A stretch of 33,858 bases of DNA from a candidate division Zixibacteria bacterium SM23_73_3. GTDB taxonomy: Bacteria > Zixibacteria > MSB-5A5 > SM1-73. The stretch covers positions 1 through 33,858 of the forward strand of contig LJUX01000009.1 of assembly GCA_001304155.1 (NCBI GenBank), read 5' to 3'. Position numbers and translations under genes: made by a program. The notes beneath the pieces were generated by a model. That model had not been told where the DNA came from. It ran no database searches and was given only the letters and a program-made list of their open reading frames with translations. This document shows positions 4,178 to 33,858 of this stretch, one piece after another; the first letter of the stretch is position 1, and each line of letters begins with the position of its first letter.

Positions 4178-5533
4178 TCACAATTGCAATCTACAAATCT
4201 TTTCATCAAAATTCACTCCTCCCAGGTTACCAAAGAGGGTGAAGCTATCAGCTCCATTTATCTTCACTGAAACAATCTTTCCCAGAAGATTCCTATCCCC
4301 TTCAATGATCACGGTCTTGTTGGTTTTAGTCTTTCCTTTCCATCTATTTTTGTCTCTTTTACTTTTATCGTCCACCAGCACTTGAAAAGTTTTGCCCAAA
4401 AGCTTTTGATTTTTCTTTTTGGAGATTTCCTTTTGAAGTTTTATCAAAACGTGCAATCGCTCAAGCTTTTCCTCTTCTGGCACGTCGTCGATCAGTGAGG
4501 CAGCTTTGGTTCCCACTCTTATTGAGTAGCGAAACATGAAAGCGGAATCAAACTTCACTTTTTTCATTATATCCAGGGTCTTTTTAAAATCCTCTTTGGT
4601 TTCGGTGGGAAAGCCAGCGATTACGTCTGTAGAGAGAGATACATCTCCTATCCTCTCTTTCATCCGCTCTACTAACTTCAAGTAATCGCCTGCTGTGTAG
4701 TTGCGATTCATCTTTTCCAAAATCTTATCAGACCCTGCCTGCAAAGGAAGATGAATGTGTTTACAAATCTTAGGAAGCGTGGCGATCTTGTCAATCAATT
4801 TCCCGGGCAAATCCTTTGGATGAGAGGTCATAAAGCGAATCCAATCAATCGTGGTCTGGTCATTTGCCATCTCAAGCAGATCGGCGAAATCTTTGCCCTT
4901 AAATTTGTAGGAGTTGACGTTCTGCCCGATCAAGGTCACCTCTTTGCAGCCGGACTCAGTTAAAAACTGGATTTCCCTTATTATCTGATCTGTGGGCCGG
5001 TGTCTTTCCGGTCCTCTGACATAAGGAACCACACAATAGGAACAGAAATTATCACATCCGCGAGAGATGGCAATGAATGAAGTATAAGGAGTCTTGCGTT
5101 CGGGGAGTATCTCCTGTTCCCATATCTTATGAGAATCAAAATCCTCACGGGAAGGACAGACAGCAACTTGGGAATAGCCTTTGTTATTCTCCAAATAGAT
5201 AGGAAGCTGGAAAATTTGATCCGGTCCCAGTACCAAATTCAGGTAAGGCATCTGCTTAACCAACTCCTCTCCCATTCTCTGAGCCATACAGCCAATCACC
5301 ACCAGCATCACCTGCGGATTCTTCTGCTTGTATCTATAAAACTCAGAAAGCCTTCCCAGAGCTCGCTTTTCCGCCTTCTCCCTTACCGAACAGGTGTTCA
5401 GCACGATAACATCAGCGTCCTTTGGATTATTGGTGATCTTATGACCTTCCAAAAGAAGTAGACTGGTGAGTCTTTCCGAGTCATAAACATTCATCTGACA
5501 TCCAAATGTCTGCAGGTATACCTTTTTACTCAT
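4178..5533 (-). CDS. miaB: MiaB tRNA methylthiotransferase
   Basis: tRNA-2-methylthio-N6-dimethylallyladenosine synthase. It adds the methylthio group to i6A37 of tRNAs reading UNN codons, using two [4Fe-4S] clusters and S-adenosylmethionine. Numbered from the chosen start, the N-terminal domain has C12 (TFGCQMN), C47 (LNTCSVRE) and C82 (VIGCMAQR). The radical-SAM triad C160, C164 and C167 sits in SRGCDNFCSYC, and a TRAM RNA-binding domain ends the 451-residue protein. The frame stays open to a possible start at 5611, but that start would lie inside the -35 box of a good promoter (5584-5611). The ATG at 5533 (MSKKVYLQTFG) matches the normal MiaB N-terminus and is preferred. It is the first gene of a run with the GAF-receiver and MetE-like genes. 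Confidence 0.96.
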   Translation of the reverse strand: MSKKVYLQTFGCQMNVYDSERLTSLLLLEGHKITNNPKDADVIVLNTCSVREKAEKRALGRLSEFYRYKQKNPQVMLVVIGCMAQRMGEELVKQMPYLNLVLGPDQIFQLPIYLENNKGYSQVAVCPSREDFDSHKIWEQEILPERKTPYTSFIAISRGCDNFCSYCVVPYVRGPERHRPTDQIIREIQFLTESGCKEVTLIGQNVNSYKFKGKDFADLLEMANDQTTIDWIRFMTSHPKDLPGKLIDKIATLPKICKHIHLPLQAGSDKILEKMNRNYTAGDYLKLVERMKERIGDVSLSTDVIAGFPTETKEDFKKTLDIMKKVKFDSAFMFRYSIRVGTKAASLIDDVPEEEKLERLHVLIKLQKEISKKKNQKLLGKTFQVLVDDKSKRDKNRWKGKTKTNKTVIIEGDRNLLGKIVSVKINGADSFTLFGNLGGVNFDEKICRLQL

Positions 5534-29462: not shown

Positions 29463-30962
29463 ATGGTTACACCAGAAAAGACTTGTCAAGTGCCAATGCG
29501 TGCTAACAAAGGATGTGGACGGCAACTTCATGACGGCAGGCATTGCATCTTTCACTCCGAACGGGCGGATAAAGACAAGATTCTCTTTCAGCAAGAATTA
29601 AATAAGCTGGCTGGACAATGCAGAGGCCATCTTTTGGATTTAAATGGATTTATCTTCCCGGATGGAGTTACCATTGACGCTATCGGGCCAGCAAAGATTC
29701 ATTTCTACAACTCGATTTTCCAAGGCAAGTTCGTGTTTACCCATCCGAAGATTGATTCAGATCTGATTTTCGGAAACGCGGTCTTCAAGCAAGGCGCAGA
29801 ATTCGAACACCGTATCTTCAAACACTATATCTTCGGTGGTAAGGTCCATTTCGCTGGCGCCGAATTCTTGGGCGAAGCTTGGTTCAGAGGAGCTGTCTTC
29901 AAAGCAGATACATTTCTTAATGCTAAGTTCAAAAAGCAAGCTGTTTTTAGCGCCGCTACATTTGAAAAAGAAGTGAACTTTAGCGAGGCTAAGTTCGAAA
30001 AGCCAGCTGGCTTTTTCGAAGTCAAGTTCACGTCCGAATCCAGATGTAGGTTCGAACGAACAACATTCGGAGCCTCGGCCGATTTCCGGTCTTGCCGCTT
30101 TGAAGGCGAGACCTTTTTTTGCGATTCTTTTTCTCAAGGCAAAACAAATGAAAAGATAGATTTATCAGGCTCACAGATTAGCGGCTCGTTCAAGATAAGC
30201 GAAGAAAAGAACCCTAAAACGATCATTAGGAGAGAAATAGATTTCAGAAACGTCAAATTCCTTGACCCGCGGACAGTAAAATTTGAGAAAATTAACTTAG
30301 GCAAGTTTCGGTTTTCAGGCACCGATGTGCGACTGATTGAATTTGTTGATGTGGAATGGGATCGTAAGAAAAGAAGAAACAGAATTCGCGACGAAGTGGC
30401 CCCTGATCCGTTAACCCAAAAGTTTGAATATGACTTGATCGCTCAAGTATACAGAAGATTGAGAGCAAATTATGAGGAAAGTCGCAATTATCCTGAGGCC
30501 GGCGATTTCTATATTGGCGAAATGGAGATGAGGAGAAGAATCGAAAAATCATTTTTTAATAAAAAAGCGTTGACTCTATACAGATGGCTGAGCAATTACG
30601 GTGAAAGTTGGATTTGTCCAATAGTTTGGTCTATTGTCACTATCTTCGCTTTTACATTTGGATACCTTTTTGCCGGATTATCTCCCATAACTTTGAATCT
30701 TGATGAATCCCCTAGAAATTTCATCCGTTATGCACCAGATTTAAGTTCGTGGGAGAGTCTCATCTCAACGGCGCCAAAAATCAGTGACTTAGGAAGGTCT
30801 TTCCTTCACTCGTGCTCAGTGTTCCTACGTTTTGCCATCCGAACGCCGAGATACGTTGTTGTTAATGAGGGAGGATATATATTGAGTGTTATTGAATCCG
30901 TTCTTGGCCCCGTTTTGATTGCTTTATTGTTTCTTGCTCTGCGAAGGAGGTTTAAGCGTTGA
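29463..30962 (+). CDS. Pentapeptide-repeat membrane protein with channel-like C-terminus
   Basis: A 499-residue protein. The N-terminus has C8, C18, C28 and H31 (HCIFHSE), a probable small zinc-binding motif often found at the head of such proteins. Residues 60-290 are pentapeptide-like repeats with Phe every fifth residue (for example GAEFLGEAWFRGAVF), expected to form a right-handed beta-helix. Residues 322-360 carry the conserved linker YEESRNYPEAGDFYIGEMEM. Two membrane helices follow (about 383-405 and 473-492), and the protein ends in a basic tail. The final helix (VIESVLGPVLIALLFLALRRRF) resembles the second helix of ion-channel-2 domains that occur in related proteins. However, no TxGYG-type selectivity filter lies between the helices. 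The function is unknown. Confidence 0.78.
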   Translation: MVTPEKTCQVPMRANKGCGRQLHDGRHCIFHSERADKDKILFQQELNKLAGQCRGHLLDLNGFIFPDGVTIDAIGPAKIHFYNSIFQGKFVFTHPKIDSDLIFGNAVFKQGAEFEHRIFKHYIFGGKVHFAGAEFLGEAWFRGAVFKADTFLNAKFKKQAVFSAATFEKEVNFSEAKFEKPAGFFEVKFTSESRCRFERTTFGASADFRSCRFEGETFFCDSFSQGKTNEKIDLSGSQISGSFKISEEKNPKTIIRREIDFRNVKFLDPRTVKFEKINLGKFRFSGTDVRLIEFVDVEWDRKKRRNRIRDEVAPDPLTQKFEYDLIAQVYRRLRANYEESRNYPEAGDFYIGEMEMRRRIEKSFFNKKALTLYRWLSNYGESWICPIVWSIVTIFAFTFGYLFAGLSPITLNLDESPRNFIRYAPDLSSWESLISTAPKISDLGRSFLHSCSVFLRFAIRTPRYVVVNEGGYILSVIESVLGPVLIALLFLALRRRFKR

Positions 30963-31001
30963 TGTGTTTGCTAGGCAAAGTTGAGAAGATAGTTATCTAA
31001 A

Positions 31002-31079
31002 CATGTAGTTGCTCGATTTATCGAGCCAATAGATGAACATTTACAAATCTCTGTGCCCAAAGAATTGGACAACTACATG
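31002..31079. repeat. Inverted-repeat element, family A (best copy)
   Basis: A 78-base element with perfect 10-bp terminal inverted repeats (catgtagttg and caactacatg). The similarity extends to about 14 of 19 bases. The left end includes the hairpin gctcgat / atcgagc. It is the clearest of three related copies in the window (also 8364-8525 and 19442-19463), each in an intergenic gap. Confidence 0.65.
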
Positions 31080-31130: not shown

Positions 31131-33020
31131 TCACTTCAGTAGAACCATTCTTATGATCTCACACCCCTGGTTGGCTTGGAGTTTACAAAAATAGATTCCG
31201 CTGGAGACTTTTTTTCCCTGCGAGTTTTTTCCATCCCAGATTACCTTTCTCCATCCTCTGGTTTGAAAACCGTGGGTAAGCTCTTTTACTTTCTCTCCTT
31301 TCAGATTGTAAATGATGAGTTTAATCTCTGCATCCGCAGGTAAGAAGTAGGTGATATTGGTCACAGGATTGAACGGGTTGGGGTAGTTGGGGAAAAGTCT
31401 GAAATGTTGAGGAATATTTTGCTCGGAGAACTCATCCACGTGGGTGAATCCGACAAAATTTATCTCAAAGGTATCCGAGTCCAGAGGGGAAAAGCAATAT
31501 TGAAATGTGGCTGGATCTCGAAACACACAATAGTTTCCCAAAGGTAAACCAACAAATGCATAATTGCCGGATGAATCGGTAAAGGTGCTGTCCTCTTTAT
31601 CGCCCGAAAGATAAACCACAGCATTTTCTAAAGGAGTGGTCTGGTCGGTCACTTTTCCTCTGATGCTGTTTAGGGTGAGGTTCTTATAATAGTGGAGTCC
31701 TCCTTTGGACTCTCCCACAAACAGATCCAAATCATTATCTAAGTCAAAGTCACAAAGAACAGGGGAGCTTCGCTTTCCCACATCAATGGAATCGAAAGAG
31801 TCGGTGTTGAAGAGAAAGGAGAAAGCCTGAGCAGTGCCTTCATTTTGATAAAAACTAATTCTTCCTTCTTCATTTCCCACCAACAGATCATAGTCACCAT
31901 CTGAATCCATATCACCAAAGGTGGGAACACTATACCAGCCCACGTCAATCGACTCGAAATTATCCGAAACTAAGGGCCAGGAGGGAAGTTGGTAAGTGCC
32001 ATCATTTCGATAAAAATAGATCTTTCCATAAATCTGTCCTACAAACATATCCAAGTCGAAATCTCCATCGATGTCTACAAAAGTGGGGGAAACGTATGTT
32101 CCCACATCCAGGAAGTCGTATTCCCCGGGGATCAAATTCCAGAAGGCAGATTCGGCAGTTCCAATGTTTTCATAGAAATCAATTGTCCCATCCTTTCTTC
32201 CTATAAATAAATCCGGATCACCGTCACCATCGATGTCGGCAAATGTGGGAGCGGAATAATTGTCCGCATGGATGGCAAAATAATTCTCAGTGATCATGCT
32301 CCAGGAGGGGATCGGAACAGTTGCCTGGTTCTGATAGAAGCCGATGTTTCCATCATACTCTCCCACAAAAAGATCGGCATCGTCGTCGGAATCTATGTCC
32401 ACCAGAGCCGGACGGGAGTAGGATCCCAGATCAACGAAAAGATAGCTTTCGTTGAGTAACCTCCAGTCTGGAAGATAAATAGTGCCGTCATTTTTATAGA
32501 AGAATACTTGCCCTTCATCCTGCCCGATGAAAAGATCGAAATCGGAATCGTCATCGATATCCGCAAAGACAGGAGAGCTGCGTCTTCCTACATCTATGGA
32601 GTTGTAGTAAGCGGTGATCGGATCCCACTGGGGAAGAGTGTCGTTTCCAGTGTTTCTGTAGAAGTTGACGTTACCGTATTCCTCTCCCAAAAACAGATCA
32701 AAGTCTCCATCCGCATCTATATCCACGAAAGTGGGGATGCTTTTTGCTCCCACATCAATGGAGTCGTAGTTTTCAGAGACGAGATACCATGAAGGCGTTT
32801 CCTTGGTTCCATCGTTGCGATAGAAGCTGAGTGTACCATCCTCTTTCCCCACGAATAGATCTAAGTCTGAGTCAGCGTCGATGTCTGCAAAGACTGGAGC
32901 GCTTTCCAAGCCCACATCAATGGAATTATAGAAATCGGTAATCTGAACCCAGATGGGAGAATTTATGTCACCCTCGTTTCTGAAAAAGCTCACTTTTCCG
33001 TCTTTATTACCCACAAACAA
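31131..33020 (-). pseudogene. FG-GAP/VCBS repeat surface protein, 5'-truncated, with sorting domain
   Basis: A 629-residue frame made of eight full repeats of about 47 residues with the calcium-loop pattern F-x-DIDxDxDxDLFVG, each followed by FYRNDGT. After these come a carboxypeptidase-regulatory-like domain (about 460-520) and a C-terminal sorting/FlgD-like domain (NYPNPFNPVTNITYFLP, then WDGKNSQGKKVSSGIYF). Such proteins are exported, probably by a type IX-like route. The 5' end is broken. The first residues read LFVGNKDGK, the second half of a repeat, and similarity stops at once upstream. An in-frame TAA lies eight codons before. There is no signal peptide, and the only start is TTG at 33020. 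The recombinase gene begins 34 bases further on. The C-terminal domain is intact, so a signal peptide and at least half a repeat are missing. Confidence 0.82.
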
Positions 33021-33054
33021 TCCGATGGGGATTCTTGCCTTGTCTTACAAGAAG
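33021..33054. other. Recombination junction between recombinase and truncated FG-GAP gene
   Basis: This 34-base gap separates the stop of the tyrosine recombinase from the first recognisable codon of the FG-GAP gene. It contains a short inverted repeat (cttgt / acaag, 3-base loop, in cttgtcttacaag). Coding similarity of the FG-GAP gene breaks off at its lower edge. It may include an attachment-site remnant, but no second copy is visible in the window. Confidence 0.45.
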
Positions 33055-33858
33055 TTAGGCGGGAGGATTGACTTTTGTTTCAATTTTGTTTCCAAATCGC
33101 AGGACTTGGACGGCTTTTGTCCTATGATCTGGAGACAGGTGGGAGTAACGTTCGGTCACCGTTATTGTCGAGTGACCCATCAGTTCTTGGACCGTTCTGA
33201 GATCGACTCCTGACATCACCAAGTAGCTGGCAAACGTGTGCCTGAGGGTATGCAAACAGGCGTTCTTTACGCCCGCTTTCTTCAGTATCGTTCTAAATCT
33301 ACTCCACAAGCATTTCTCTGAGTGAAACGGCTGATCGTGTCCGTTGTCGAAGACATACTTGCCTCTTTGGGGCAGGTCCATTAGAGTCTTCTCTACCTCT
33401 GCATTCATGGGGATTGATCGTGCCTTATAGCTCTTGGGATGAAACCCGGTCTCAGGCTTCGACTGAACTTTGATCAGCTTGTTCTGGAAATCAATGTCTT
33501 CCCATTCGAGGTAAGCCAACTCCGCTCTTCTCAGGCCAGTGTTGAGCAGAACCGTGATAACCTTCTGCATCAGGGGATCAGCGATGGTCAGAACCTTCTC
33601 GATCTCTTCGACCGTAAGGTATCTTAGCTCTCGGACATTGCTGTTCTTAAGCTTCTTGAAATCTTTGAGTGGGTTTTCTCTCAAACTTCTCCATTCGACC
33701 GCCTTGTTCAGCATGGCCTTGATGAGCATAAGATCATTATTGAAATTAGCTGCACTGGAAGCCTGTAAAATCCTGCCCTTGTATTCCTCTACCAACCCAG
33801 GAGTAATCCCCCTGAGCCTTGTGACTCCTTTCTGCTCCAAAAAACGTGAGAACTTCTT
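33055..33858 (-). CDS. Tyrosine recombinase (integrase), 5' end beyond the window
   Basis: A phage-integrase-family site-specific recombinase that cuts and rejoins DNA through a tyrosine. Visible catalytic residues are R in NTGLRRAEL, K in the beta-hairpin region, H-x-x-R in LHTLRHTFAS, H in LMGHSTI and the nucleophile Y in TERYSHL. The N-terminal core-binding (SAM-like) domain is only partly present. The frame is open through the window edge, so the first visible TTG at 33840 is probably not the real start. It ends in NKIETKVNPPA just before the truncated FG-GAP gene. Whether it belongs to an integron, an integrated element or a housekeeping Xer pair cannot be told here. The lineage-specific context favours a mobile element. 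Confidence 0.93.
   Translation of the reverse strand, partial: KKFSRFLEQKGVTRLRGITPGLVEEYKGRILQASSAANFNNDLMLIKAMLNKAVEWRSLRENPLKDFKKLKNSNVRELRYLTVEEIEKVLTIADPLMQKVITVLLNTGLRRAELAYLEWEDIDFQNKLIKVQSKPETGFHPKSYKARSIPMNAEVEKTLMDLPQRGKYVFDNGHDQPFHSEKCLWSRFRTILKKAGVKNACLHTLRHTFASYLVMSGVDLRTVQELMGHSTITVTERYSHLSPDHRTKAVQVLRFGNKIETKVNPPA

Follow-up and report, generated by a model that had tools for sequence, protein, structure and literature searches.

A gene for an FG-GAP repeat protein begins abruptly inside a repeat, directly beside a tyrosine recombinase gene, which raises the question of whether the locus is a simple insertion scar or a switch through which a recombinase exchanges the 5' ends of a surface protein. 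The window, a stretch of 33,858 nucleotides, is the complete contig C16 of the draft genome of candidate division Zixibacteria bacterium SM23_73_3 (G000), and one contig end falls inside the recombinase gene. The draft is fragmented (1.88 Mb, 90 contigs, about 82% complete), and the recombinase lacks its N-terminus because the locus lies at the end of C16, that is, through an assembly cut and not a biological one. Relatives used for comparison were G005 of the same family, G007 and G008 of the same genus, and, at the level of the order, ten relatives. It is very probable that an element carrying a phage/genomic-island-type integrase inserted into an intact gene for a secreted FG-GAP protein, splitting it in two.

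The split FG-GAP gene

The two parts of the gene and the adjoining recombinase gene are as follows.

31131 to 33020, minus strand: 3' part of the split FG-GAP repeat gene, 629 codons, supported by Pfam matches and orthologue tiling
33055 to 33858, minus strand: tyrosine recombinase (phage/genomic-island integrase), truncated by the end of the contig, which removes ~85 aa from the N-terminus
C4, 1492 to 1954, minus strand: 5' half of the FG-GAP gene, 154 codons, with the signal peptide and the first FG-GAP units

According to Pfam, the product of the 3' part contains FG-GAP_3 and CarboxypepD_reg domains and a FlgD_ig/Por_Secre_tail sorting tail. An earlier reading of the window, made from the sequence alone, described an open reading frame without a signal peptide that starts half-way through a 47-residue repeat, 34 bases (33021-33054) downstream of the stop codon of a recombinase on the same strand. 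The distance, the strand and the missing signal peptide were confirmed, and the frame does begin inside a repeat, but the spacing of motifs gives a unit of 54 residues. The same reading took the codon at the junction as the start of the gene; this TTG is merely the first start codon of a frame that remains open into the element.

When the FG-GAP protein was compared with the rest of its own genome, one further place with such repeats emerged, on the minus strand of C4 (1487-1702). The open reading frame at this place (C4:1427-1954, minus) encodes a signal-peptide-like N-terminus and the first FG-GAP units up to ...DGDWDLFVGN, followed by unrelated sequence. The window piece starts at LFVGN and the C4 piece breaks at the same codon; on the intact orthologue from G005 (787 aa) they tile residues 148-787 and 4-151, respectively, which shows the split of the G000 gene directly. 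A search for the missing 5' part, which had been proposed as a check, thus recovered it from the same genome at a complementary junction. On this sequence evidence the true N-terminus of the FG-GAP protein is encoded on C4, together with its signal peptide. The presence of the front half on another contig of the same genome points to an ordinary insertion scar, whose ends are unusually clear, rather than to a recombinase-driven gene switch.

The 5' and 3' parts of the orthologue in G008 (72% identity) are contiguous on one contig, with no recombinase or element between them; this copy contains TTTGTGGG once and carries a frameshift. In G007 the gene is reduced to a 3' remnant. The possibility that the same junction is fixed in all relatives is contradicted by relatives with a contiguous gene and no recombinase.

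Two further features occur next to the FG-GAP gene. Just downstream of it, at 31000-31035, lies a partly palindromic repeat of 24-30 bp with the core GTTGCTCGATTTATCGAGCCAATA, which recurs on at least seven other contigs (C62, C30, C52, C4, C29, C36 and C26). A gene for a pentapeptide-repeat membrane protein (29463-30962) is located between the alcohol dehydrogenase and FG-GAP genes; since the latter two are about 245 bp apart in G006 (contig C180), it represents either a local gain here or a loss in G006.

Junctions and element ends

The following features were recognised at the junctions.

33007 to 33020, minus strand: 14-bp string TTGTTTGTGGGTAA, the longest string common to both junctions
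33008 to 33016: 9-bp host unit TTGTGGGTA, within the 14-bp string
33009 to 33015: putative 7-bp crossover TGTGGGT, position presumed
33017 to 33033, plus strand: right terminal (core-type) repeat ACAATCCGATGGGGATT, located by a whole-genome pattern scan
C4, 1475 to 1491: inverted partner of the core-type repeat, at the left end
C47, 6178 to 6194: the same end repeat at a second integrase
33076 to 33094, minus strand: putative arm-type site, a paired direct repeat (TGGAAACAAAATTGAAACA) that overlaps with the integrase gene at its 3' end

Both junctions, the end repeats and the duplicated string can be read directly from the contigs. The C4 junction consists of GATTTGTTTGTGGGTA followed across the break by ACAATTCGGTGGGGATT, and the C16 junction, in the direction of the gene, of AATCCCCATCGGATTGT followed by TTGTGGGTAATAAAG. 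The second copy of TTGTTTGTGGGTAA, on C4, lies just outside the left element end and overlaps it. Removing one copy of the duplicated string, with the 9-bp TTGTGGGTA kept once, restores the frame exactly and yields the in-frame empty site SFPAFADMDDDGDWDLFVGNKDGKVSFF. A 17-bp sequence, ACAAT[T/C]CG[G/A]TGGGGATT, is present in inverted orientation at the two broken ends, with two differences between the C4 and C16 copies, so that core-type sites face each other around a short identical crossover, the exact position of which (TGTGGGT) is presumed.

When the genome was scanned for the end repeat with up to three mismatches, exactly three copies had no mismatch, namely those on C4, C16 and C47. 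The 29 matches in total exceeded the 14 obtained with a reversed control pattern. The remaining 26, with two or three mismatches, were considered as further element ends and rejected, as they have no flanking sequence in common with the perfect copies and look like chance matches. The proposed search for inverted or direct copies of the junction sequence has accordingly returned an inverted copy on C4, the same end on C47 and no further perfect copy in the genome. An Rfam search at the junction gave no match.

The two element ends lie on separate contigs and the interior is unassembled: C4 covers 1.47 kb of the left side, and C16 ends within the integrase. A cytochrome peroxidase was considered as cargo on C4 and discarded, being just a 77-aa fragment at the contig end, unconfirmed by the family search.

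The integrase and its putative arm-type sites

The window recombinase matches the profiles PF00589 Phage_integrase (E=9.9e-32) and phrog_1 (E=4.8e-56), and its catalytic R-K-HxxR-H-Y residues, invariant in the alignment, are intact where visible. Domain and residues (R, K, HxxR, H, Y) place it in the tyrosine recombinase/phage integrase family. In HMM searches it groups with phage-type integrases, well below the integron and XerC/D cut-offs; the integron integrase profile TIGR02249 gave 76-82 bits against a cut-off of 265. Among viral contigs, phages and plasmids only distant relatives were found (at most 32% identity), and a genome_contigs search produced one match (27%). C57 (L036) and C77 (L037) carry short integrase remnants of a similar type, one of them interrupted by a stop codon.

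Putative arm-type sites, recognised as TTGRMACA pairs, are present at the end with the integrase and inside the left end on C4, where the same pair is accompanied by an (AACCCA)-rich stretch. An equivalent pair is found at or near the integrase gene on C47 and C68, on C271 of G003, on C40 and C217 of G008, and elsewhere. A dispersed repeat of ~60 bp inside the C4 end, of which single contigs of G003 and G009 contain several copies, first resembled an attC array. This integron reading was rejected, the repeat fitting the arm-type site of island ends and the integrase scoring below the integron cut-off. The left-end arm is repeated across the order, and its assignment as an arm-type site rather than attC agrees with the tRNA 3'-end-like sequence outside several copies and the intact tRNA-Met outside the copy on C8.

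A second copy at the 3' end of KBL

Contig C47 encodes a complete integrase of 351 aa, 81% identical to that of the window. It ends in the same end repeat, which is followed directly by ...HMDKAIQAFTKIGKKYKGI and a stop, the C-terminus of KBL (glycine C-acetyltransferase). KBL scores above the family cut-off in all ten relatives in the order, and in G007 an intact KBL precedes the peptidase gene that is also found on C47 (73% identity). No full KBL copy was found in the G000 assembly, a draft about 82% complete; the insertion into the 3' end of KBL (C47, L009, 6150-6260) is known from one side, and the 5' half of the gene was not recovered from the assembly. The presumed crossover strings of the two related copies differ, TGTGGGT in the window and CCATATG on C47, which suggests, from these two cases, relaxed targeting by the integrase pair.

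Upstream of the C47 integrase there are a 135-bp direct repeat (87%; 1478-1612 and 4823-4957) and a tRNA-Glu-like 3' fragment, which are perhaps remnants of earlier insertions.

The integrase family and tRNA genes

Of 32 loci from the order and phylum, 22 have the integrase gene close to a tRNA gene or an evident remnant of one, a few hundred bases away at most (our own count), and many of the 32 show paired repeats of the TTGGCACA/TTGAAACA type beside the integrase gene. Members of the family in the same phylum adjoin tRNA-Met, -Ser, -Glu, -Leu, -Gln, -Arg and -SeC. Most relatives are thus associated with tRNA genes; the two copies described here lie elsewhere, that of the window in the FG-GAP gene and that of C47 at the 3' terminus of KBL.

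The conserved arm-type repeat is distributed across nearly the whole order (L111-L123, e.g. L123 3532-3602 and L114 6704-6765). In some genomes a single contig contains several copies, and there is usually no integrase close by. Related genes are located on its inner side in L114, L120 and L123, with a fragment in L119; that in L123 encodes a Ser/Thr-kinase/TPR protein. These repeats may represent islands that are non-autonomous and mobilised in trans, or they may be remnants.

The probable insertion and its alternatives

In the most probable scenario, an element with its own tyrosine integrase, from a family that normally targets tRNA genes, would have integrated into the FG-GAP gene and split it at the DLFVGN motif. 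The integrase would lie at the right end, beside the 3' half of the gene (the window junction), and the other end, with the 5' half, on C4. The att site would comprise a short crossover flanked by an inverted repeat of 17-18 bp, and the target in the FG-GAP gene would match it imperfectly; two copies, those of the window and C47, would have entered protein genes. The window integrase itself presumably made the insertion, which may have deprived the host gene of its function; the size and cargo of the element are likewise presumptive. The sequence-only reading had offered a simple insertion scar as one of its two explanations, and this one is borne out by the 5' half on C4 with its inverted element end, the 14-bp string at both junctions and the contiguous gene of relatives.

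Since no contig spans the whole element, C4 and C16 could instead flank a larger rearrangement between two att sites. A small gene inside the C4 side has chromosomal orthologues in G007 and G003, without nearby arm sites, which also speaks against a compact element. An integrase-mediated chromosomal rearrangement, in which an att site elsewhere recombined with the FG-GAP gene, is unlikely but the strongest of the alternatives. The orthologue of the C4-side gene in G007 lies about 2.5 kb from msrB, and the msrB orthologue of G000 is on C47, the contig of the second integrase. These are two short matches in orientations that are not simply joined, and a simple insertion would account no less well for the string that the two junctions have in common.

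Judging from the reconstructed empty site, precise excision of the element could restore the FG-GAP gene. A reversible, active-lysogeny-like integration that acts as a regulated on/off switch for the secreted protein would agree with the direct repeat flanking the insertion, the full frame of the empty site and the integrase residues, intact where visible, and such switches are known (PMC6597384, PMC5296598). It is nevertheless quite improbable: an excisionase was not identified in the part-assembled element, the gene has decayed in close relatives (the frameshift in G008 and the 3' remnant in G007), and the second element sits in a metabolic gene, which implies loose targeting rather than a kept switch. 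We accordingly give little credence to the idea that an integrase lineage, having departed from tRNA genes, now serves as a surface-gene switch, with regulated excision restoring the repeat protein in part of the population.

The other explanation of the sequence-only reading, a cassette or phase switch in which one repeat-plus-sorting 3' end would receive different 5' ends in repeated recombinase reactions, varying a surface protein, is highly improbable. The recombinase does adjoin a surface-type repeat gene, and the junction is frame-neutral, so that exchange of 5' ends would be productive. The genome search, however, found no alternative 5' end, the sole other FG-GAP piece being the gene's own 5' half; of the three end-repeat copies in the genome, one is in an unrelated gene. 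An invertase-type switch would be expected to have multiple alternative segments, or inverted copies, at a single locus, and none were found in the genome; the gene is contiguous and without a recombinase in relatives, and the nearest integrases are of the tRNA-linked genomic-island kind and do not belong to an invertase system. An assembly artefact or chimeric contig end, which the sequence-only reading had also raised and which a contig ending inside the integrase in a draft of 90 contigs (82% complete) might suggest, is just as hard to credit, because two independent contigs (C4 and C16) give complementary, base-exact junctions that restore the frame and carry matching ends, and a related integrase has the same end at its junction on C47.

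Comparison with known systems

The integrated element most resembles those of tRNA-targeting genomic-island and prophage integrases (lambda-type sites, phrog_1), with which it shares the integrase domain, the integrase gene at the element end, the paired arm-like sites inside the ends and the core-type inverted sites; it differs in that the window and C47 copies lie in protein genes and have a long 17-bp end repeat in common. The layout of the ends, with core-type inverted repeats and arm-type sites inside them, is that of lambda-type prophages, integrative and conjugative elements (ICEs) and strand-biased integrative elements. Among the last, the circularizing SE-6945 and SE-6283 have 19-bp imperfect inverted repeats with a 6-bp spacer, carry intA, CDS2, intB and CDS4, and integrate into several loci (PMC9345347). 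The end repeats here are likewise imperfect, inverted, of similar length and arranged around a short crossover, and several loci are used, but one integrase is seen, the interior being unassembled, and the presumed spacer is 7 bp. Tn916-type conjugative transposons also have loose target choice and a short crossover between element ends, and in Tn916 a coupling sequence of 6 bp comes along from the donor (PMC12084037); here, in contrast, both junctions bear the same host-like string, and no conjugation genes are seen, with the element interior missing. The element in mutS (PMC5296598) and the hlb-converting prophage (PMC6597384) show that mobile elements interrupt genes and that excision can restore them. 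The FG-GAP gene is a similar case of a coding gene interrupted and in principle restorable, as predicted from its sequence.

Significance

The insertion explains both the truncated FG-GAP gene and the end of the contig, and supplies the missing half of the gene; with it, the two ends of an integrase element are delimited in a draft genome. That two such closely related integrases lie in different protein genes, when their family is otherwise found mostly beside tRNA genes, is a modest example from nature of target choice that has changed or relaxed.
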